64,000 nucleotides of DNA from Asterochloris sp. CNOR1 (lineage: Eukaryota > Chlorophyta > Trebouxiophyceae > Trebouxiales > Trebouxiaceae). The position numbers and the translations under genes are program-made. The notes under the pieces were generated by a model. It was not told the origin of the DNA. It did not search any database and saw nothing but the letters and a program-made list of their open reading frames with translations. This document shows, piece by piece, positions 39,101-55,300 of the stretch. Position 1 is the stretch's first letter. Each line of letters starts with the position of its first letter. The DNA lies in assembly GCA_963969365.1 (NCBI GenBank), contig OZ017749.1, forward strand, positions 2,046,001-2,110,000. Direction: 5' to 3'.

Positions 39101-42100
39101 GTCAAAGAGACAGGCAGGGCACACGGGCAACCCTGCAGAGCACACTTACAAAGCACATCACAGTGCCCCTGTCATGTTCTTTAGCAGCATGCACTGCATG
39201 AATTCCCTGCCTGACAGGCAGCTGCGATGGCAAGATAGGCAGCGTCCATCCGTGAGAGGGCTGGCGCTAAGATGGCCTGTCAACCTTAAGAGAGAGCAGC
39301 AGCCAGGCAGATCACAGCAACCTGGTGTCACGCACCTTGGCTCTCCTCTCGTGGCAGAGCTCCAAAGGTGGCTCGCCGCACATGGGGCTGGCGCTGCACC
39401 TGCTTGGCCACCGCGGCTGCCATTGCCCCCAGAGGGGAGGGATGGTACCCTGGCGCAGCACTGTTGTGCGTCCTGCATCACAGAAAGGGTGTTCAGACCT
39501 GCAATGGTCGAGGCCAGATGTTCATGCCCCGCAGCGCATACTGCTGTGCAATTGTCCCTTTGTCTGCAAGCATGTGTTGTGCAACTGTGTCCCAAGACCT
39601 CATCTATATTACGAATGGCTCATGACTTGGAAGATCAAGGAGTCAGACTGTGACGGTCAATCACAATGTTCATCTCAATGGGACATGGGGGTTCAATGGG
39701 AGGTCAGGTGTGATGCCAGTCTGGGAGCACAGCCTACCCTTGCACTGCCCTGGGCCACTGATCACAGGAGTGGCCGTGCCATCAACCCACACACAACCGC
39801 ACTTCTGGAGGAGCAGCCAGTCCTTGTACTCACTCAGCCAGGCAGGGCTGCCCACCTCGTGATCTCAAGGGTAGAGTTGTGGGAGGCCTCTGACCCTCGT
39901 GGGCCCACACTCGAGCTGGTCCGCAGGGCTGCAGTGTCGCTGGTGGGGCCCCGCTTCATGCTGCTGCGGCTGGAGCTGTGGCTACCAAGGCCGCCCAGGG
40001 TCGCACTCAAGAAGCCTGCGCGCAAGAGAGGGCAGAGTGGAATGGTCACGCTACAGTGGCAAGAGGATAGCTGGCATAACAATACGGGCCCCAGCAGCAG
40101 GGCTGCTTACCCAACCCACTCACACCAGGAGAGCTGCATGCAAGCAGACTCTGTGGCTGGGGGCTGTGAGCAGGCTTTCCAGGCCTACCAGCTATGGCAA
40201 GACAGCAGTGGAGAGGGTGGTGCTGCGGCCCTGAGGCCCTGAGGCCCTGAGACAGCATTGCAGCTCGAGGCAGAGACAAGTAAGTGGCGCTTCTGTGCAG
40301 GCACACCTGACAAGAATGGAAGACGTGGGACTGCAGCGGAAATTTGCCGGCGCATCAAACCTGGTCAGCCTGCCAGATGTGAGAGCAACCCCAGGGCTTG
40401 GTCTGAGTGTGCAGCGTACCTGAGAAGCGCTTGCTTTGCAGGCGCGCCAGTATCATCAGGCTGCGGGGGCTGTCTCCCCCTGAAGCAAAGCTGGCGCCCA
40501 GACGGATCTTCTTGGGCGCGTCGGGGGCAACACGGATGGCAGCGCTGGGCGGGTCAAAACGCCGCGCTGCCAGGGTGCTGGTGGCAGCCTGAAAGATCTG
40601 CTTGGGGTCTGTCAGGCCCTGCAGGCCATCAGTGGAGGTCCTCAGTATCTGTTCTGACAACAGAGGCAGCACACAGCAGAGGCAAGGGTGGGTTCCGAGC
40701 TTTCAGCCTTGATCATAAGCGTCAATCCCAACATCATGAGCGTCGGTCAAGCCTGACAGGTTAGTACTGGCCAGGATCACTTTTGGCCACAGGCAGAGAT
40801 AGCACACCGCCAGACCCGCAACAGGATCTGGCCCATCATGGATCTGGAGACAGATTTGCTTGACAACAACGACAATGACAAAGCTGCCAGAGTAAGCTCA
40901 GGCTAGGAGGTCTCAAACAAGGAACCCAAATAGACACACCCCGTCCACCTTGTGAGGGCGAGCAGAACATGTGCCCACACCTCTTGAGCAGAGAGTGCAC
41001 AAGATGTGCACCCTGTGCCTACCTTGAGAAGAAATTGCCCCAAGTAGGAGATTTCTATGCACTCCCCCACAGAGCTGCCTCCCAGTGTGCCCTCGCGGCC
41101 CAGCTGCAGCAGAGCCAGGCTGTCCTCCTTGATCCACTGCAGCTCATCCCCAAAGCCCTGGCACCCCTCCAGCAGCACCTGCCCGGGCTGGGCCAGTGCC
41201 GACACACGAGCAGCCAGGTTGGGGAGGTTGCCATAGTAGTCAGCACGACCTGCAAGTAGAGAGGGACGCAGTGACTTACTTGGGAGTGGAAGTTGCACGG
41301 CCAAGAGGGGCCAGCCTGGCCTTTGCAGGCCCCAGGGGCAGATGGACCTTTGCCAGCAGATCATGCAGTGACTTGTTGGAGCAGTAGAGGACAGCCAGAT
41401 GGTGCCACAGGACTCAGGTGCCCGGCGATCTTACCGGCATGCCATCGAGTTGCTTGGGGCACAGAACACAACACTCTCGGCTGCCAAGGCTTTCCAATAC
41501 AAGCTGGCAGGGGACACGCAGTGCATCACTGGGCAATCTGGAGCTGGGCAGTGCTACAGCTCAAGTTTGTGGTGCAGACCATGCTAGGAATGCCCTGCAG
41601 GCCTGCCATGCAGAACTGGTTACAACTGCCTAGCTGCGTTGCCACAGCAACCCACTGCTTGCTAAGAAATATGATTCTGTGGCGCGCTACGACGGTCATT
41701 GAGGCTGGGGCAGCCCTCCTGCCTCCGTACCAAGGCCTGCACCAGCAGCCTGGGCACGTGCTCCAGCACAAAAGTCGCCCCCCACCTGTGTTCAGGGGCT
41801 TTCGGTAGTCAGGCCGGCCATAGGCCATGCCCATGCGCACGCGCAGCCCGCGCCAGATGGTGTGCCCTGAGGCGGCATCATGCACCTCCCCGCAGGCGAG
41901 CCAGCTCAGCACCTCCTCCGGCCAGGGCAGATGCAGCAGCTCCTTCTGCAGCACTGAGCAGAAGCGCACCGCCTCCTCCAGCTGCCTGCATGCATGGGGG
42001 CCGCCGACTGAGCAGGCCTGGCAGCATGCTGACAACAGCTCTCTCTCTGGCACCAAGCAGGAGCGCGATGCCGTTGCAGCCACCTGCAAGGAGAATACAG

Positions 42101-45100
42101 CAGCTTGTTGGCTTGAAGAGTGGGGGCAGGGCTGGTAGCAAGTGCCCCCTCTGCAGCCCCAGACAGGAGCGTGCAGCATCCTGAAGTTGCTTGCAAAGAG
42201 GAAGCAGCTCACGGGCTGAACAGGCTGGACCCGGTGCAGGGCCGCCTTTGACACCACCTGAGCTCTGTGCGACTTTGTCACCATGTGCAACTCAGGCTGG
42301 GCCAACAAGGACATAAACTGGCACTGGCACAGAGTACTGGGTGCCTGGTATCTGCCAGGTGGCATGACTGCTGTGACGATGAGCCTCACAGGAGATCGCT
42401 GCTTGCTTAGCACCTGCCTGGCCAGCACCAGCCCAGCATCTCAGGCAGCCACGCAATGCATCCATGGTAAACGCCCGTCCTGCTGTTTCACATATGCAAG
42501 GTGTGCTCACCTGAAGGCAAGGGTGAACTTCCCAGACTCTGGCTCCTTGCACTCATATCCCCCAAAGCAGGGCAGCAGCTTGCGCAGGAGCTTGCTGTAC
42601 TTGCCGACGGCCACATTGTAGGCTGTGATGGTGTTGATGATATCATCATCGCTCACTGGGCTGTCTGCATGCTCCTTCTCATATACTTCATCTGGCTTGT
42701 CCACCTGCAGCAGTCGAGGCAGGCTTGATGGCATCTGGCCATTCCGACCTCACATCCCCATTGACTGCACAACAGATGCAGCTGGAGTAGCAGGATGCCT
42801 CTGAGGACTTGCTGCACATTCCAAGCAGATCAGCTTGTCTGCTGGCAGCAGCATTGCATAGGTCTGTACAGCTTGTCAAATTGCTGGAGATGCCAGTTGC
42901 CTTGCATCTTCATGCAAAGGGGATTGCATCCGTCTTCCCTTCTTGGATGAACACGTTGAGTTTCCACTCAGAGCTTTGGGCCCTGCCCCATTTGACGCCA
43001 TGCACAATGAAGGCGCGCACCCTATGTGGTTGTCTGCTGCTGTTGCCTCAGTGCATGTCGATGCTGTTTCCTTCCGCAAGGCAGCCCCTTGCTTACCTTG
43101 ACAAAGGCAATGGCCATGTTATGCTCTGGGTCAGGGCTGTCACGGAAGCCCGGCTCCACCATGCGCAGCGTCAGGGGCGGATCGAAGTCGCGCTTGGCCA
43201 GCAGGGAGGGCATGGCCTCCATGAGCAGGATGGGCTGCGTGAAGTCCTCGTCTATCACGTGCACCCCCAGGCTGATGATCTGCAGGGGGAAAATAAGAGC
43301 AGGGCTTGCAACTGTAGAGGTCTGCCGGGAGCTGGGGGTCCAGCCTAGCCAATGATCTGCAGGGGGGCCTGCAGGGCATGCCCTGAGAGAGGCGCTTCCT
43401 GTAAGCAGCATGGGTAAGAGGTCTGTTTGTCTGCGCTGCTATCAGTCTGCAGTGCAAAGCACAAAACAGAGGGCAGATCTGAAAGCCTTGCCAGCAGCAG
43501 CTGCCTCAAGCCCAGCAGGTCATGTGGAGGGGGCCCAGGCCAGCGCTCTTCCAAGAGGAAGCAGATCCAAGCAGCAAACAGCATACTGCCGGCACCAGCT
43601 GTCTCTGGCTGTCTTGTAGCTGATGGACGGCAGGGGATGCAGACCAGGACGAAGGCCTCACGCTTTAGGAGTATGGCCTCTGCGAACAGCAGCCGTTGCA
43701 CAGTGCTTGCAGTTTTATTATGCTATGCGACGCTCAGGTCGCTTTCAAGATGATTTTCAGACTAGAGATGGCTTCTGACGCAGCGAAGTGGACGGCAAAC
43801 ATGAGGCCAGCAACCTCACATGCAGCACAATCTGAGAACTGGCATTGGTTGCGGCTGCCAGATAAGCCAGCGATCTCAGCAGTGCAAGGAGATTGAGATG
43901 GGAGGCCTCCCTCCCTCAACAGCAGGTGCACAATGCAGGCCGCTGCTCCTCATGTGCTGCGCCTGACTGACCTGGCACTGCCCAGGAATCTGGTCCTGCA
44001 TGGATTGCCAGGCGGTCTCGCTGAGCACCACCTGGCCGCCATGAATGACATTGCACAGGTGCTTCACAAACTGCTCCCCAGCGCCCGAGTAATCGTAAAA
44101 GTCTGTGTGGCGCGCCCGATTCGGGATCGTGACCGTCACCTGGCTGCAGGCAGGAGTAAGGAAGCTGCACGCTCAAGAGGAATGCTGGCAGTGAGCAGAG
44201 CTTTTGCTGACTGGCAGCCTGTCTGAAGGAGCACAGGCAGCATGACTGCAGAACAGGCATGTCTGAGCAGGGCACTGGTTCTTGCAGGCAGGCTGGTCCT
44301 GAGACCAGCGGCCACTGCATGTGAACTGCACCAGCTGGTGATGACTGCGCCTCATGTCCCCCAGTAGACTGCAGCCTGTGTCCCGCTTGTCACCGTTGAC
44401 ACGCAGCCTCGTGCCATTCAGCTCGATGGCATGCAGGAATGGTCCTTACATGTATTCGTCTGTCTCGTGCACAGCCATGGCCACGCGTGGTCCCTTCCAC
44501 AGGGGCCGCCCGTCCGGCATGTCCTGCTGCCCCCCAGACACCTCATGGGCTGCCGCCGGCCAGTGTGCATACAGAATGGAGGTCTGCCCGGCATGGCAGA
44601 AGCGCACCGCATCCACTGTGTGGCTGAAGGCCACCACAAAGCGCCCCTGCGGGGCGGAAGGCACACAGGCAGGTGAGAGAAGGCTGCCAGGAAGGAAGTG
44701 CTGACTGCTTGCTGCAGTGGCACGTGCCCCAGCAGTGTGTTGTTGCCTTGTTGCCCCGCACGCCAGGTGGCGACCATGGCTGTCCCAGTGAGGCACAACA
44801 TATTGTGTCCGCCACACAGCTCGTGACTTCCTTGGTGTTGCAGACTGCCAATCTCTGTTCACCTGCTCAGCCACCTTGAAGATGTAGCCCCTGAACTGCA
44901 TGGCCACCACAGCGACCACCTCATACAGCTTCTTGAATGCCGGCTCCGGCACGACAATCCCCTCTCCCACAGCTATGCGCAGGGCGACAAAGGTCAGCAG
45001 GCCGCGTGCACCCCCGCCACCCTGCAGGCGCGGCAGGGGCGGGGGCACAATGTTGAGCCCCCACCCCCTCTCCAGCAGGACCAGCTTGCGCGGAGCCTCG

Positions 45101-48100
45101 AACTTGCGGTGCAGGGGCTTGCCCATCTGGTAGCTGACCTGCAGTCAGGGGTCAATCATGCAATTCATTCTTCATGGGGCAGAGTAAGGGGCAGGCAGCG
45201 GCTGACCTTCAGGCTAACAGTACTGCCTACCGATAGTCAGAAGGTCACTGGGGCTGCCAGCTGCAGGCATGATCATCATTCCAGTGACCAGGGTCCGTGC
45301 ACGCCGAAGCCCAGGCTCAGTATGACTGCGCAGCTGTCAGATCTATTGTGCAGTCCTACTTGCAGAAGGACTACATGTGAGAGGGACCCCATGTGGAAGC
45401 CCGCAGCACGCAGCAGGCGGGCCAGGCCAGTGACTGGCAGCATCGCCCAGCAATTGCCCTGCACAGGCCGCTGCATCAGCATTCCCTCCCAGCACAGCAG
45501 CCATGCTCACCTGGTAGATCCAGGTGGGCTGCGGCGAGTTCTCCAGGCGGAACAGCCCAATCTGCTCCACTGTGGGGAAGCCAGCACCTGCCATGTTCTG
45601 CCGCAGCTGCCCCCAGGCCTCATGGGTGATCAGGATCTGGCCCCCGGAGGCTGCGTCACCCACCTCCTGCGCAATTTTGAATCCAGGGCCCACAAAGATG
45701 CGGTGCTTGGTCAACATGTGCAGCCTGCAGCAGGACAGGTACTGCTGCAAGGTAAGGTTGCTGCTGGCTGCACACAGCCAAGTGCAGGCCAGGGCTGCTG
45801 CATGGGTGCTGCCCATTGAGTCTCCCGTGGGCATGCAGATAAACTGCAAGGATGCCTCAAAGCTGCAGTCAGCCACACCTGCATATGCTGACTGGCAGCA
45901 TGCTCAGCTCAGACAGGAGCGAGCCAGCAGAGTACCGCTGTGACTGGACAGTGCTGCACACACAATGGGTGGCAGCCTGGTGTGGGCAGGCACCTGACAC
46001 AGCCTTGCCTACCTGTTGGTGACAGTGCCCTCTGGCGCCCAGTGCAGCCCCATGCGCACGCGAGGCCCCCTGAAGACAATGTCCCCATGCGGACCCACCA
46101 CCTGCACAGTGGAGCAGGCTTTGTGCACTTTGGCACACAGCGACCAGCCAGAAAATTCACGTGGAAGCAAAGCTCAGCAGCCATAGGCATTAGGTAGCTG
46201 CAGCCTTTGGGCAAAGCCAACATGAGCTTGCCAGGGACAGGCCTCCAGGCAGCAGTGCCTGCCTGCCCAGGCCCCTCCCGCCCAGGCAGGCACAACTGGC
46301 CAGCCCTGCAGCACAAAGCCTCTGCAGAAAGGCACGTGCGGCACCCCACGCACAAGTGGCCACACAAAGAGACCTGACAGCACTCACCTTCCCGCAGGAT
46401 GGCAGCCGCAGCACATCGCGCGGCCACTGCACCTCAAGCAGCTTGTACTGCGTCTCCAGAGCGAAGGCCACAGCATCTGCAATGTTCATGAAGGCCACAT
46501 GGAAGGAGTCGCCCTCCGTATTGATCTCATAGCCGCTGTACTTTGCAATACCCTCGCGCATGGTCTGCAGGCACGCAGTACACAACTGCTTGGTGGGCAG
46601 CTGGGCACAGCATTGTCCCTGGTCTGCAGGGATGCAGCCCCTGTGTGTGCTGCTGGGACTGAAAGGGAGATTGATGCTCAGGTTGACTGTCTGGCCAGGC
46701 AGCCAGTATGATGTGTGAGCTGCATCGAAGCAGCTATGACTGTGCGCTGAGCAGTGCTCCAGTGGCTGCCAACAGAAACTCTACTTCAAGCCTCCAAACG
46801 CCCATCCCACGAGCAGCCAGGCAGTACTCACTGTGTTGTGAATCTCAATAACCTTCTTAAAGGCGACTGGGTTCTTAGCTGCCTGAGGCGTCGAATCCTG
46901 CAACATAGACACATGACCCTGAAAAAACAGCAGCTGCACAGGAGGACTGCATCTTGAGCAGCAGATGCGTCACTGGCAACATGCCACCCCACAGCGGATG
47001 GCGTTGCCACTGCCTGGGTCTAGGAGGTGTGGGCCGCCACCTCAGATCTGGCCCTTGCAGAGGCTCTGCTGCCTTTTGCTGGTCCTGAACCAGCACCTTG
47101 GCACCCACCTGCAGGTCTGTGATGAGGATGGCCACCTCTCGCCTGTTGCGGAACTCGGCCATCTGACTCTTCAGGGGGTCCCCCGTCACATTGACCAGGC
47201 CATACATGAGCGCCTTGAGCATCTTGGCCTGCGCCCGCTGCGCCTGCTCAGCCTCCTGCTTCACAATGATCCTGCGGGGGTGCCAGGCCTGGGCGTCAGC
47301 TATCATGCAGGATGTGTGGGGAAGTGGCTTGGGCAATGGTGAAAGCCAGCAGCAGCAACAGTGGCTTTCCCTGAGCAGTAGTGGGGCTGCCGTCCAGCAG
47401 GCAAGAACATGGGTGCTGCCGGCGGCGCCAGTGCCAAAGGCAGAGTATCTGGGCAGTGAGGGATGCCAAGGTTGGTGACGCACCGCGCTGCATGCTATGC
47501 GAGCGAACTGCTGAGCCCTTTGCAGCAGGTGCCCAGCGCCATGAGCAACCTGGCAAAGGGCCCTTGTGCAACTGCCCCACGCTGCACAGCCTCCAGCAAG
47601 CAGGCACATCTACAGGCAGCAGATGGGCACTGCACAGCCTGTCAGGCTGGGCAGCAACCTCACCTGCGCCTGGCGATGAGCAGCATCAGCAGCAGCACGA
47701 TGATGCTGCACAGTCCAATGGCCGCCAGCACCACCACCGCCACCAACACATTGTAGGTGCTCTTGTCCTCCACCACAACTGTGCCAAAAGGCGGCGCGGT
47801 TGCAGCCAGCGCATGTACACTCTCCACAGCTGGGCTGGGGGCATCCTGTGATGCGGCCAGCCTGAAGAGCTGGCGCACCATACTCCGCAGACAGCGTTTG
47901 ACACGCTGCTGGGCCTGTGGGCAGCCTGCAGGACTTGTGCACAGCTGTGCGCTCCCGCTGCTGGTGCTGAGCGAGCTGCTTTCTGGATTCCAAAGACGCA
48001 GGCTGCCAGCCTCAGCCGTGCGCCGTGTGCTCCTGCTGCTGGCTTCAGGCGAAAGAACTCCTGGGTCCCGCAGTGACACGCTTCCTTGGACTGGGCGCAG

Positions 48101-48456
48101 GCTGCAGGACCAGCTGCTCAGCACTGTGCACGCCTGCTGCTGGCTCTGAGTCAGGGGGCTTCTAGGTCCCACAGTCTCATGCTGAGGGGCACAGCAGTGC
48201 CACAGGGCGCTGCTGCACCCCTCAGCAGGTGTTCACTGATACACCAGCTGAGCGACACTTCAGCTGTGGTTGCTGGCCAGGCAGGAGACGCTGCTGCGGC
48301 TGTGCCTCTGCTCTGCAGGCCAGGCTCAGCTGCCAGTGTCAGCCGCTTGCCGCCAAACAGGCAACAACCGCAAGGAGAGCTCCCTGCTGAGCTGAGTGAC
48401 ACCGGCTCCCCAGCCTTTCTGCAGCTCTGTATAGTGGAACTGATGCCAGACAACAA
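35784..48456 (-). CDS. Giant single-pass receptor cyclase with three tandem class III cyclase homology domains
   Basis: In transcription order: a poorly resolved ectodomain (about 48456-47830), one transmembrane helix (VLVAVVVLAAIGLCSIIVLL, near 47740-47670), a juxtamembrane helix, then three cyclase domains. Domain 1 (about 47275-45514) has AILITDLQ joined to DSTPQAAK, and YEINTEGDSFHVAF, giving both metal-binding Asp. It reads GPGFKIAQEVGDAASGGQIL where Asn and Arg of the transition-state loop belong. Domain 2 (about 45139-43970) lacks all of them (LLTFVALRI, FKVAEQGRFVVAF, GAGEQFVKHLC). Domain 3 (about 43280-41031) has lost the metal Asp (MAIAFVKV, KEPESGKFTLAF) but keeps Lys (YECK), Asp (ADYYG) and PNLAARV. 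A Ser/Pro/Arg-rich tail follows, at least to 36.7 kb and perhaps to 35784. The start codon and last exon are not fixed. Nucleotide specificity and ligand are inference. Confidence 0.75.
35950..36760. repeat. Repeated copies of a short exon start near the cyclase 3' end
   Basis: On the minus strand the sequence GCGCAGCCGACTCAGAGTC (about 36750), which encodes RSRLRV, recurs in weaker form near 36565 (GCGCAGCCACCTCAGAGTC), 36450 (GCGCAGCTGCCTCAGAAAC) and 35965 (CGCAGCCGCCTCAGCATT). The first three contain a CGCAG acceptor-like site. They look like diverged duplications of one acceptor/exon-start segment. Confidence 0.5.
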
Positions 48457-49369: not shown

Positions 49370-52300
49370 TCATCCAAATCCAAAACCCTCCGACCCCTCG
49401 TGGATCGCCACCTGCAGCAGGAGTGCCACAAGTCAATGCTATGGACATGAGCAGCTTGTGAAGACAAGCCTCACTACATCTTCAGACACCCACCTTTAGC
49501 AGCCTCAGCGCAGGCTGCCTGCCGGGCACTGGCCTGGGCAGGCTGTTCACGGCTGCAGGCGGCCTGCTGCTCCCAGCCAATGACAAATTTGTGCCAGGGC
49601 AGTCAGTGGTCTGGTCAGGTAGCTCAAGCAGCATGCACAATGAAGCCCAGCGCAGGGCGTTCGCACCATGAGCCTGTCCTTGAGAAGCTCCTTGGTCTCA
49701 TACTCCAGCATATCCAGCTGGTTGAAGCAGGTGTGAGCGCTGGGAAGGCGGTCCTGAGGGCCGTAGGCCTTGTGCACCTGGAACTTCTGCGGCCCAGAGA
49801 TGCCCTGCAGCACAGCCAGTGGCTCAGCAACGATCATGGCGGCCAGACAGCAGCACACGCATCGCGAAGCAGCCAGGCCAGGCCTCTGCGTGTTTGCATC
49901 TCAGCAGGGGTTAGCAAGGGCCCATACCGGTCAGAGCGGCATGCAGTGCATGGCAAGCAAGCTTGAAAATAGTGAGAGCCGTCTAGGCCGATGTGTACCC
50001 ACCTGCAGAGCCTTGAAGCCCTCCAAGGGCACCTTGGAAGTGCCTGTCACAAACTGGACCAGCAGGGCCAAGTCTTCCTTGTCCAGGTCACGCACAAGCT
50101 CCCAGAACCTGCATGGCAAAAAGGTAGCTCTGTCGGGCATGGCACCCAGTCCAGTGTGGCAGACATGCAGGGTGACATCATGATGGAGTCTCAGGATAGT
50201 GCAGACAGCAGGATCGCAGCCCACAATGCAGAAGACATGACTCCACTTGAACATGCCAAGCAGACAGAGCTTCAAGGTGCAGGAGCCAGCTTTGGAGTCA
50301 GGCCACAGCAGCTGAGGTGTGCCAGATATTATGCGGCCACATACTGCCACCAGTGGAATTGCACAGCGGGCTTGCAGCAGAACGCACCACTGGATCTGAC
50401 GACTGGCAGCAGTGTAGCCACTGTACTCAGTGTTGGCCCGCAGGTCATCAATGTCTATCTCTGGCAGGCCAGAGATCATGAGCTCCAGCTCATGGTCATT
50501 GAAAATATCAATCAGCTCCTGCAGGGTAACAACTTCCCGTAAGAGCTTGCCTCTGATCCAGCAGGCTGGCCCCCTTGCACATCCTCCAGGGCAATGCAAG
50601 CAGACAGCAACAAAGGGGAAGCTGCAGGTAAAGTATCTCATTATGCCCTGCTCAGAAAGGCAGCGAGCTGCAAAGGAGCCTAGGTTGGCTGCCTCCCTCT
50701 CACAGTGATACAGTGACATGCGGGTAGATATAAGTGGGCTCCTGAAGCGGGGCCCACTACGCTTGACAAACTTGTGTTGGTTGACTGCACTGAGATGTGC
50801 AGCCATACAAGTCAGCCAGTGAAACCTAGCAGCAGTGAGTGTCCTCAAAGTCTGTGGCAGGTGTATGGCAGGCAGCAGTGATTGCTGCCTAGTGGGCAGG
50901 GCCTGCTGTGGCACACCTTGGGGGCAAGGTCCCGGAACCCTTGGAGGAAGGCATTGATCTGTGCCTTGATGGCAGTAGTCATGCGATGCCGGGCCACCAG
51001 ATTGACATACTCCCTCTTGTTCTCCTCAGTGACCCTGCAGGGGCAGCTGGCACTTTCAGACCCTGACAGTGCAAGTGCCTGATGCTGGACGGGGAGAAAA
51101 GGCTTGTGTCCTCTGTTAATCTTGCCGCTGCTGACTTGCATGCATGCTCAATGCCACAGAGTCACCTGCTGTTCCTCATGCAATGACCTGAGTGGCCGTC
51201 CTACCAGTTAATGCAACGCTTTGAATGCACAAGTTGCCGAAGCCCATTGGCTTTTCCTAACATTGCACAGACAATGCTGCCTGCCACAATGGGCCAGACC
51301 ACTGCATCGACACCTGGCGATTGCCTGATGTCCCAGGTCCACACTCCTCTGCTCACATTGGCAAGAGGCTGTAGCAAGCAGCTCATAACAGACCTGTCCA
51401 AAAGACACTGTGCTGTGTTGCAAAGGATGCCTCCTCTTCAGCGAGAGGCATGGCTTGCAGCCAGCACTCACTTCAAGTTCTGACCACCAGGCTTAAGCTC
51501 AACCAGCTCTTTCTTGCCAAAGTAGTCGGTCTCCTCTGTGAAGGTCAGGTCCAGGACATCGGTGATGTCGTTTTGTAGCATCCAGCGCAGGTTCTTGTGG
51601 TACTCAGGGTCCACAGCCTCGATGTCCTGCATCACAGGAGATAGCAGATCAGCAAAGGTCAACACTGAACACTGTGGAGACACAGCTGCCAGGTGCACAC
51701 AGAGAGGCCTGATTGCGCACAGGGTCTTCTCATGTGAAGGACCTCCCATGACAGCCTGATTGACACAGCTTGGGCAGGACCTGTGCTGAAGGCCTGCTGA
51801 GTGCTGCCCACAGGTGCAGCCAATGACGAAGCCTTGCTGACTCCGGACTATCACTGACCTCCTGAGACAGGGAGGTGCCTACCATACTCAGCACACTTCT
51901 ACCAGATCAGGCACTCATCTGAAAAATTCCTATTCATCTACTTGTGCAAAACATCTGCCCCTTCATATGCTCAGAGCAGCTGCAGGTGACGTCAAGCGGC
52001 TCACTCAAGGCCCACCTCATAAGTGAGATCCATGCCCAGCATGTGCTTGTAGAAGCTGCGTGTGAAGTAGGCATCAATGAGCTGCCCGTCGTACAGCGCC
52101 TTGCCAATAATCCTGCCCACAAACTTGAAGAAGTCCAGGTGATTGGTGCCACGGGCCTCATCATTCTGAACCACAGAGTTGGGGTTGGGCTGGAAGGTGG
52201 TGCCGTGCTCGGGCATGTGCACAAACAGGCTGAAGTTGGGGTTGAAGATCTCCCGGGCCATGACCTGCAGCAGAGGAGGCGGAGTGTGCTGGAAAGTTTG

Positions 52301-55300
52301 CAGCTGCAGAGCAAGGCTGCTGGGCACTGCATTCAGCAAGCTGCAGCAGCCACCACAGAAGGCGAGGCACAAATATACAAGCAAGGGAGTTGGGATTTCC
52401 TCTTTGCTGGAGGTTGCCACTTGCCGGAAGATGCCCCTGCTGCTGCAATGTGATCACAGCGGGCTTGCAAAGGGTGTACATCTTGGGATGCCAAGGGCGA
52501 AAGCAACATCCCAGGCGGGGCACACCAGCCCCCAACTAACCTCAGGCTACAACGCAAACACATAACCAGCGGACCTGGTACCACTCCCTGGACACGCCGC
52601 CTGCATCAATGCCCTCCTCGCCCTGGAACTGCACACTCAGCTTCATGCGCATCTCGTCTGGCGTCCTGCAGCAGGCAGGGCATGGCTGTCAGACAATGCG
52701 CATGCTGTTGCAGCCAGCACTACCAGGATGCATTGTATACAATATGGCCTGAGAGGCTGACAAGGATCAAACAGCAGCTGTAACCTTCCTTTGGTAGAAC
52801 AGCCCAGCTCAGCTAGCACAATGCCAGCCATGCCTGTAGCACTTGTCACCCGAAGGTTGTGCCGACAAGCAGCCTCCTTAATGGCAACAGCATGACCGGC
52901 AAACCATGTGGTCCAGACCACACCCAACCTCTGTGGGCTAATGCCCACATCAAGTAGGCTTTTTTCACCCTGTATGCGGGCAATGTACAGACTGCAGATG
53001 CAGCACAGCTGTCCGCAGGCAGCACAGCTCTTCACAAGATGCACAGTCGAGCATCATAAATTGGGGTAGCCAGCAGGCTTGTCAGCAGGCACCCTGGCCA
53101 GCCCAGGTGTATATCACTTCATGCAAAGCGGATTGAAAGCCTGTTCTTGATGTCAAACCAGGCTCAGACAACGAGATATGCTCAGATCATGCTGTCACAG
53201 TGCTGCTGGCATGCACCCCAGCTCAAGTGCATCTCACCTCATGCGCAGCTGGTGGAAACTGTCCTCGAAGACGTGGTCCCTTCGCACAGCGATGCGCAGG
53301 GTGCCATAGTGGCGATGCTCGTCGCCCGAGGAGCGGATGCGCGTGCGGAAGAAGGTGCGCTTGTTGTCAAAATCGATCAGGCGGGGCACCTTCAACAGGG
53401 GGGTCATTGAGGACTCCAGCAGGCTGGAGTTGTGCCGGAGCAGGGTATTCAGCAGGCGCCTGTGCTTCTCAGCAAACCTGCAGCACAATTGCAGCGGGCT
53501 GGGGTCAACAGCAGCCCAACAGCAGCCCATGTAAAGGTCTCCTGTCGCCCGTGGTTCCCCCAACCCCCCAGTAGAGACAGCACACAGAGGGAGGCTTTAC
53601 AGGCCTGCAGGGCAGCGTGCACGCAGAGCCCATAGGCGCAAAGCTGTCAGGCACCTGTCCAGCATTCAGCCACTGGCCCTCAACGCACAGCACTGCAGCA
53701 AGCCGCCAGTGGCCTCACAGCACACAGTCACTGACAGGAATGCCGTCAGTCACCTCAGAAAGGACAGCCTGGGCTCATTGGCAGACAGGGCTCAATGCCA
53801 CAGCCAGCCACCTGTACAAGGCCAATGTTAGGTCATTGGCAGGCAGCGCTGAGTGCTACTGTCACTCACCTGAGGAAGGGCAACCTGGGGTCAGCCTGCG
53901 CCTGTGCAGGCGGCCCGTTTGGGCCGCCATGCGCTGACTGCCGGCTGCTGCTGGGGCCAGAGACATCCATAGAGGCCGCGAAAGGCAGGGCGCTGAGGTC
54001 CATGGAGACCTGGCGGGACACAGCATTGTCCAACGGCGGCTGGTGGGCTGTGCAGACATCGCACAGCACAAAGAAAGCCTCCACAAGGGGTATGACCTGC
54101 AGCACACAGCATCAATGTCCAGCTGGTGGGGGTCGCAGATGGGTTGTTTACACCCAGTAGATAGCACTTCACCTAAGACATGACCTCCCACCCACACTTT
54201 CAAGTCAGCAGCATGTCTGCTGCATAGCTTAGAGCTGGCCGGCCGCTTCCAGGCCGCCCCCATCAGCAGGTGCAAGCATCACACAGCCCATCGACTGCCA
54301 GGCCAGGTGTAATGGGTTTGCTCAAGCTGCCCTCAATGGCAAGGCAAGAGGCAGGAATGTATCAGGCTGTGCACCTGTGCAGCACCAGGCGGCAAGATCT
54401 TGGCGGCAGCAGATGCCTCAATCTGCGGCACAGCCTGCTTGCCCAGCCCCTGCTCGATCTTGCCGATGCAGGCGCTGAGCGCGTCCCACAGGCCCTCCAA
54501 CTCTCGTGACATAGCCTCTGTCAGCCCCGCATCCTGGGGCCAGGTGTCGGGCCTTGAGCCTGGCAGCACCTGCAGCACATGGCATCTGTCGTTGATGCTT
54601 GAGGCTGACTTGATGTATGAACACGAACACATCAGGTAGCTTAAAAGAGATATGCAGCAGAGATAAAGTTGCTGCAGGAGGTCCAGGTGAAGTGCACAGC
54701 CAGCTTGAAGCATTGCTGCTTGACATTGCACATGATAATGGGTGCTGTGCTCACTGACAAGCCGGCGGCACAGGCCAGCTCTTGGCCAGTCAAACAGCTT
54801 ACATTATTGGCCGACTTGGGCTTGGGAGGGTTGACCAGCGAGGACACCGCCTGCAGCACCCGCAGGACCAGAGACCCAACAGAGGACACGTCCCCAGCAA
54901 TGCTGGCGCTGCTCTCCAGGTTGCTCTCCATGAGCTGGTGCAGCTCCACGACAGCAGCCATCTGCAGCCTGCAGGCAACCCATACTCTATCAATGGCAGA
55001 GGGGGGAGGGAAGGGACTAAGAAGGCCATGGAGCAGCTCCACGAGAGAATGCCTCTTTGATCGTGTATGCAGCATGCAAGCCACACAAAGGTTGCATTAG
55101 CAGCACACCGAGGCCCTCAGCACCACACAGAAGCCGTGTGGTCTACAGCATTTTGTCGCTAGTGCTGCTGCTGTGGCACTGATGCACTGGGCAGGTGGCT
55201 CACTAGGTCAGCTGCAACTGCAGCTCCAGCAGCATGAGCTGTGGCACTGATGCAGGGAGCAGGTGGCTTACTGGGTCAGCTGCGACTGCAGCTCCAGCAG

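Follow-up and report, generated by a model that had tools for sequence, protein, structure and literature searches.

Within a window of 64,000 nucleotides from Asterochloris sp. CNOR1 (contig OZ017749.1, positions 2,046,001 to 2,110,000; all coordinates given here are those of the window unless a contig is named), a spliced gene model on the minus strand (47925–39834) codes for three class III cyclase domains, here called D1, D2 and D3, preceded by one transmembrane (TM) helix. Its product is probably a single-pass, membrane-anchored class III cyclase, in which D1 and D3 form a composite active site of the C1/C2 kind and D2 is inert, and which belongs to a family of leucine-rich repeat (LRR) cyclases encoded in the same genome. 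In mammalian transmembrane adenylyl cyclases, C1 supplies the metal-binding Asp residues and C2 supplies the Lys, Asp, Asn, Arg and further Lys. In the algal protein, the C1-like D1 would supply the two metal-binding Asp, and the C2-like D3 the residues that select the purine (Lys/Asp) and act on the transition state (Asn/Arg), along with the phosphate-binding Lys.

The residues were located by alignment of each domain to the Trypanosoma brucei cyclase structures 1fx2 and 1fx4 and to paralogues from the same genome. We compared the seven positions at which class III cyclases have their catalytic residues: metal Asp 1, purine Lys, metal Asp 2, purine Asp, Asn, Arg and phosphate Lys/Arg. Read in this order, D1 has D, N, D, I, K, E, E; D2 has A, K, Q, D, Q, H, D; and D3 has K, K, S, D, N, R, K. 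D1 thus retains the two metal Asp and none of the other residues, matching the C1 set exactly; D3 retains the complement, namely the purine Lys/Asp, Asn, Arg and the phosphate-binding Lys, and so matches the C2 set exactly. D2 keeps the purine Lys and Asp and nothing else of the catalytic set. These alignments bear out the original prediction, made from the window alone, that D1 retains both metal Asp and carries Lys and Glu at the Asn and Arg positions, and that D3 has lost both metal Asp and keeps the purine pair together with Asn and Arg. D1 and D3 would associate head to tail, the simplest case being association inside a single chain, and one functional site would remain. From its Lys/Asp pair, the enzyme is predicted to use ATP, and its product is probably cyclic AMP (cAMP).

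The two halves of each domain are unequally conserved. Window domains were split just before the glycine–arginine stretch of the second half, and the halves were scored against the corresponding parts of 1fx2 using 500 shuffles. The Z values for the first and second half were 21.0 and 10.2 in D1, 7.3 and 23.9 in D3, and 1.0 and 8.4 in D2. Conservation of D1 in its first half and of D3 in its second is what one would expect if just one of the two potential sites has been preserved. The idea that D1 and D3 form a C1/C2-like site is therefore supported by complementary residues and by conserved halves alike; the origin first proposed for it is revised below.

The gene model was assembled by three-frame reading and exon joining, with introns and ends picked by hand and by homology; it comprised 13 exons at first and 15 once the 3′ end had been added (Table 1). 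Each of the 14 introns has GT..AG borders and joins its exons in matching phase, and no frame break or stop interrupts the exons, which end in a single terminal stop. The model spans 932 residues, counted from its first codon; the 5′ edge of exon 1 and the start codon are provisional. GC content is 78.7% at codon third positions (GC3 0.787) versus 58.6% in the introns. Hydrophobicity analysis gave one strong TM helix in this model, incomplete at its 5′ end (Kyte–Doolittle windows up to 3.19); the sole other window above 1.6 is a weak one of 1.69 within D2. Single-exon open reading frames (ORFs) gave almost no Pfam matches, and spliced domains were required. The D1/D2 and D2/D3 junctions each lie within one exon (45138–44863 and 43279–43097) that shows homology to both flanking domains. 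Unless both exons have been misread, the three domains therefore form one chain, as had been proposed.

Complementary pairs of cyclase domains recur elsewhere in the genome. Searching its 56.4 Mb (21 contigs) with the window protein and with paralogue pieces (E ≤ 0.01) located at least 13 loci outside the window. The genome also contains 31 exon-level matches to the chlorophyll a/b-binding family PF00504, which, like its abundance of introns, fits a green alga. Eleven of the 13 were retrieved, and both domains were modelled in ten (C14a, C14b, C16a, C16b, C12, C8a, C8b, C13, C17 and C9), where C1 and C2 follow each other in tandem on one strand; the eleventh, C3:3669k, yielded C1 only. Paralogue domains were located by domain-wise queries, partly in restricted regions; a spliced alignment of one whole paralogue to a single query had mis-assigned the second domain. 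The complementary residue split was found in eight of the ten modelled paralogues. Both metal Asp are retained, and the purine Lys, purine Asp and Arg are gone, in every C1 (10/10); Asp, Asn and Arg are retained, and metal Asp 2 is gone, in 8/10 C2s. For metal Asp 1, a reasonably secure alignment was reached in just two C2s (C12 and C14a), both of which lack the Asp. All eight intact paralogue C2s carry Gln at the purine-Lys position, and among the nine intact pairs only D3 of the window gene has Lys there; substrate choice within the family may differ accordingly.

With paralogue domains split more crudely, at fixed lengths, the first half scored higher in all ten C1s (Z 23.2–30.2 versus 3.2–20.3). 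A tree of 23 domains groups D1 with the ten paralogue C1s (support 99/97) and places D2 and D3 on the other side from the C1s, with the placement of D2 unsettled.

The paralogues read best as receptors with an LRR ectodomain, a TM helix, C1 and C2. Plant-type LRR motifs (LTGxIP and similar) were counted upstream in the sense direction: 10 in C8b, 6 in C14b, 1 in C12, 3 in C16b, 4 in C3 and none in C16a, where the scan covered 1.4 kb only. None occurred in antisense upstream of any of these six paralogues, and a hydrophobic stretch lies close to C1 in all six. Pfam LRR families matched above cut-off in two of four C8b ORFs and in both C14b ORFs tested. The Pfam test outside C8b took 5 of the 11 listed paralogue ORFs; among these, a C3 ORF did not reach the cut-off, and neither the C12 nor the C16b ORF gave an LRR match. 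By eye, C8b shows a signal-peptide-like start, an LRR cap, repeats and a TM helix that splices directly into C1. The C8 region at 280001–296000 on the plus strand (L051 and L038), and likewise loci on C14, C3, C12 and C16, have the appearance of LRR–TM–C1–C2 receptor cyclases. On C16, the loci at 1278001–1288000 (L032) and 1320001–1340000 (L033/L034) have an intact-looking C1 and a C2 without Asp, Asn and Arg (RASYCGPVVSRAAH, RASYTGLMARRAAQ); C16a and C16b are probably inactive pseudo-cyclase receptors.

The window gene shares with this family the complementary split and the position of D1 among the C1s, but not the upstream LRR. No LRR-like motif was found at 51400–47650, and we therefore rejected an LRR ectodomain on the TM exon. 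About 1.4 kb is available for an ectodomain, given the provisional start, and the search there was for LRR, other ectodomain types not being covered. The window gene may have lost, or never had, the LRR part found in other members. Because no LRR motifs lie upstream of it, we do not call it a receptor, and the earlier label is dropped.

The middle domain sets the window gene apart from its relatives. The C1–C2 gaps of eight paralogues (all modelled ones except C16a and C16b) were scanned with hidden Markov models (HMMs) built from the C1 and C2 domains of the paralogues, leaving out the window gene, and applied to ORF pieces of at least 20 residues in the three sense frames. None of the eight gaps gave a third domain above the inclusion threshold, and a three-domain layout was rejected for these paralogues; D2 itself passed with the same HMMs (1.5e-10 and 1.6e-07). 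The gaps measure 1.1–3.2 kb in the paralogues versus 3.1 kb in the window; going by size, the longest gaps would still have room for a middle domain. When D2 was used as a genome query, only its own gene was found at E ≤ 0.1, the next best match being the D3 exon (E = 0.083). The gap scan and this result together indicate that the middle domain is peculiar to the window gene among those examined. D2 would be a catalytically inert pseudo-cyclase inserted between D1 and D3; its likeliest source, tentatively, is a duplicated C2-type domain.

These observations do not support the history first proposed, in which the split arose in a three-domain receptor rather than in a two-domain protein. The split is common to two-domain paralogues, D1 groups with their C1s and the scanned gaps yielded no third domain; the three-domain state therefore looks like a later addition.

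A more speculative role for D2, which we think unlikely, is that of a C2-type decoy competing with D3 for D1, so that partner switching within one chain provides on/off control in a family of plant-type LRR receptor cyclases whose C1/C2 split is independent of that of animals. As D2 keeps the purine Lys/Asp and lacks Asn/Arg, a D1–D2 pair would bind ATP without turnover, and the D1–D3 pair would make cAMP.

Several observations weigh against a D1–D3 site in an LRR-cyclase family member with a C2-derived D2. The origin of D2 is poorly constrained: approximately unbiased (AU) tests rejected no placement (p from 0.066 to 0.447, five tests) and do not choose between D2 as sister of D1, as sister of D3 or inside C1. 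D3 lies below the Pfam cut-off, and D2 has no PF00211 match. Branches are long (1.44 for D1, 1.37 for D3 and 2.59 for D2), which could mean relaxed constraint. In the paralogues, the C2 halves are mixed, with the second half higher in eight of ten, by 0.3 only in C17, and not in C13 or C9. In eight of the ten C1s, Glu stands at the purine Asp position; because Glu resembles Asp, the loss is less clear-cut there than in D1. Asn is retained in the C1 of C12. The C2 domains of C16a and C16b (2/10) also lack Asp, Asn and Arg, which indicates that sites without probable activity can persist in the family. Finally, the control with ordinary cyclases of this genome is thin: one of seven motif-scanned loci (L041) has metal Asp 2 and an Asn/Arg motif 0.9 kb apart on one strand, and the motif scan did not find its first metal Asp.

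The composite site could also lie between chains, D1 pairing with D3 from another molecule of the protein, or else with C2 of an LRR-receptor paralogue, which would make the window protein a partner subunit. Class III cyclases are commonly dimers, the paralogues provide C1 and C2 domains of the same kind, and the window member has no visible ectodomain. However, a full complementary pair is already present within its single chain, and we consider an inter-chain site unlikely. Also unlikely, in our judgement, is a decaying pseudo-enzyme that has lost its ectodomain, has one dead domain and others drifting, and makes no cyclic nucleotide. The missing LRR part, the inactive residues of D2, the long branches and the degenerate C2 of two paralogues would fit such decay, but 15 exons without a stop or frame break and the GC3 value argue against it, as does the retention of just those residues that a C1/C2 site needs; the Lys in place of Gln at the purine position, unique to the window gene among intact pairs, points the same way. 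That two neighbouring genes were fused by wrong splicing is highly improbable even for a model with introns and ends set manually and by homology, since both junctions lie in single exons with homology to the flanking domains and C1 and C2 stand in tandem on one strand in the paralogues too.

The composite D1–D3 cyclase that we favour is closest, among solved structures, to trypanosome enzymes. The best matches are T. brucei GRESAG4.1/4.3 (1fx2, 1fx4): 1fx4 for D1 and D2 (E = 1.1e-13 and 0.016) and 1fx2 for D3 (E = 5.3e-12), and GRESAG4 was also the best match for two paralogue domains. GRESAG4 is of the receptor type, has a large extracellular ligand-binding domain and works as a homodimer with all catalytic residues in its one cyclase domain, whereas the window gene spreads them over two domains, has a third between these and shows no visible ectodomain. 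No mammalian transmembrane cyclase chain appeared among the single-sequence PDB matches of the window domains and two paralogue domains up to E = 10. The C1/C2 split therefore looks independent of the mammalian one. D1 and D3 have the residues of C1 and C2, respectively, and the algal arrangement would work like that of the mammalian enzymes, but by these tests falls outside their family. The mammalian proteins have two six-helix membrane bundles, in contrast to the one TM helix and three cyclase domains of the window gene. They are described as C1/C2 pseudoheterodimers with catalytic residues spread over both domains of one chain (PMC9552081).

A second comparison concerns fungal LRR adenylate cyclases (Cyr1), which combine a cyclase domain with LRR and PP2C domains; the Candida protein Cyr1p is reported to be cytoplasmic (PMC2939053). 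This 2010 survey of 101 eukaryotic genomes reports LRR and PF00211 in one gene only in fungi and groups fungal cyclase domains with those of Leishmania and T. cruzi (PMC2939053). The algal paralogues, unlike the window gene with its missing LRR, would resemble Cyr1 in joining LRR and a class III cyclase in one gene; they differ in the TM helix between the two and in the split C1/C2 pair. Pfam results for the three window domains included no match to PP2C or Ras-association (RA) domains, both Cyr1 features, for which the paralogues were not searched. The algal LRR-cyclase genes appear to break the fungi-only rule of that survey (PMC2939053). C2-type domains may explain why this pairing was missed, as all those tested (D3, C17 and C8a) fall below the Pfam cut-off. 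In the literature accessible to us, in which subscription journals are poorly covered, we found no LRR–TM–C1–C2 protein, algal LRR-cyclase or three-domain cyclase, and term searches of three algal genome papers (PMC12712428, PMC6652019, PMC11126685) turned up no such cyclases.

A C1/C2 split site on a trypanosome-type rather than an animal-type cyclase would offer two apparent origins to compare. An LRR–TM–C1–C2 protein would bring ectodomains in the style of plants together with cyclic nucleotide signalling in a green alga, and this two-domain family seems at least as interesting as the window gene. The D1–D2–D3 chain, for its part, is a chance to learn the role of an extra, dead cyclase domain.

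Table 1. Exons of the cyclase gene model and the residues they carry (window coordinates).
Feature	Position	Strand	Remarks
Exon 1, TM helix VLVAVVVLAAIGLCSIIVLLLMLLIARRR	47664..47925	-	Donor GTGAGG, phase fits next exon; in-frame Met MVRQLF..., start provisional
Juxtamembrane stretch and D1 metal Asp 1 (ILITDLQ)	47109..47271	-	Aligned to GRESAG4 IFTDIES
D1 exon DSTPQAAKNPVAFKKVIEIHNT	46832..46897	-	
D1 exon, metal Asp 2 (TEGDSF), Asn at purine-Lys position	46388..46564	-	
D1 exon	46013..46101	-	
D1 exon, Ile/Lys/Glu at purine-Asp/Asn/Arg positions (RIFVGPGFKIAQEV)	45511..45724	-	
D1 end and D2 start; TFVALRI with Ala for metal Asp 1, YIFKVAEQ with Lys retained and Gln for metal Asp 2	44863..45138	-	
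D2 exon	44450..44646	-	
D2 exon, FYDYSG (purine Asp kept); Gln at the Asn position, His at the Arg position	43972..44143	-	
D2 end and D3 start; AIAFVK, Lys at metal Asp 1	43097..43279	-	
D3 exon, YECKEPESGKF with purine Lys retained and Ser for metal Asp 2	42511..42704	-	
D3 exon	41786..41985	-	
D3 exon ADYYGNLPNLAAR, purine Asp, Asn and Arg kept	41023..41249	-	
D3 C-terminus exon, GLTDPKQIFQ after phosphate-binding Lys position	40420..40618	-	Weak alignment to GRESAG4 GVSDPVKMYQ
Last exon, Ser-rich tail and stop	39834..40015	-	Splice phase and stop only, without homology support

Directly upstream of the TM exon, at 47925–48232 on the minus strand, about three diverged repeats of ~100 bases each can be made out by eye; Tandem Repeats Finder did not report them. 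Further upstream, the same strand carries the final part of a HECT ubiquitin ligase gene with several exons (49370–52453). Its stop was read at about 49370, and all four ORFs tested match PF00632, which covers the HECT part only.

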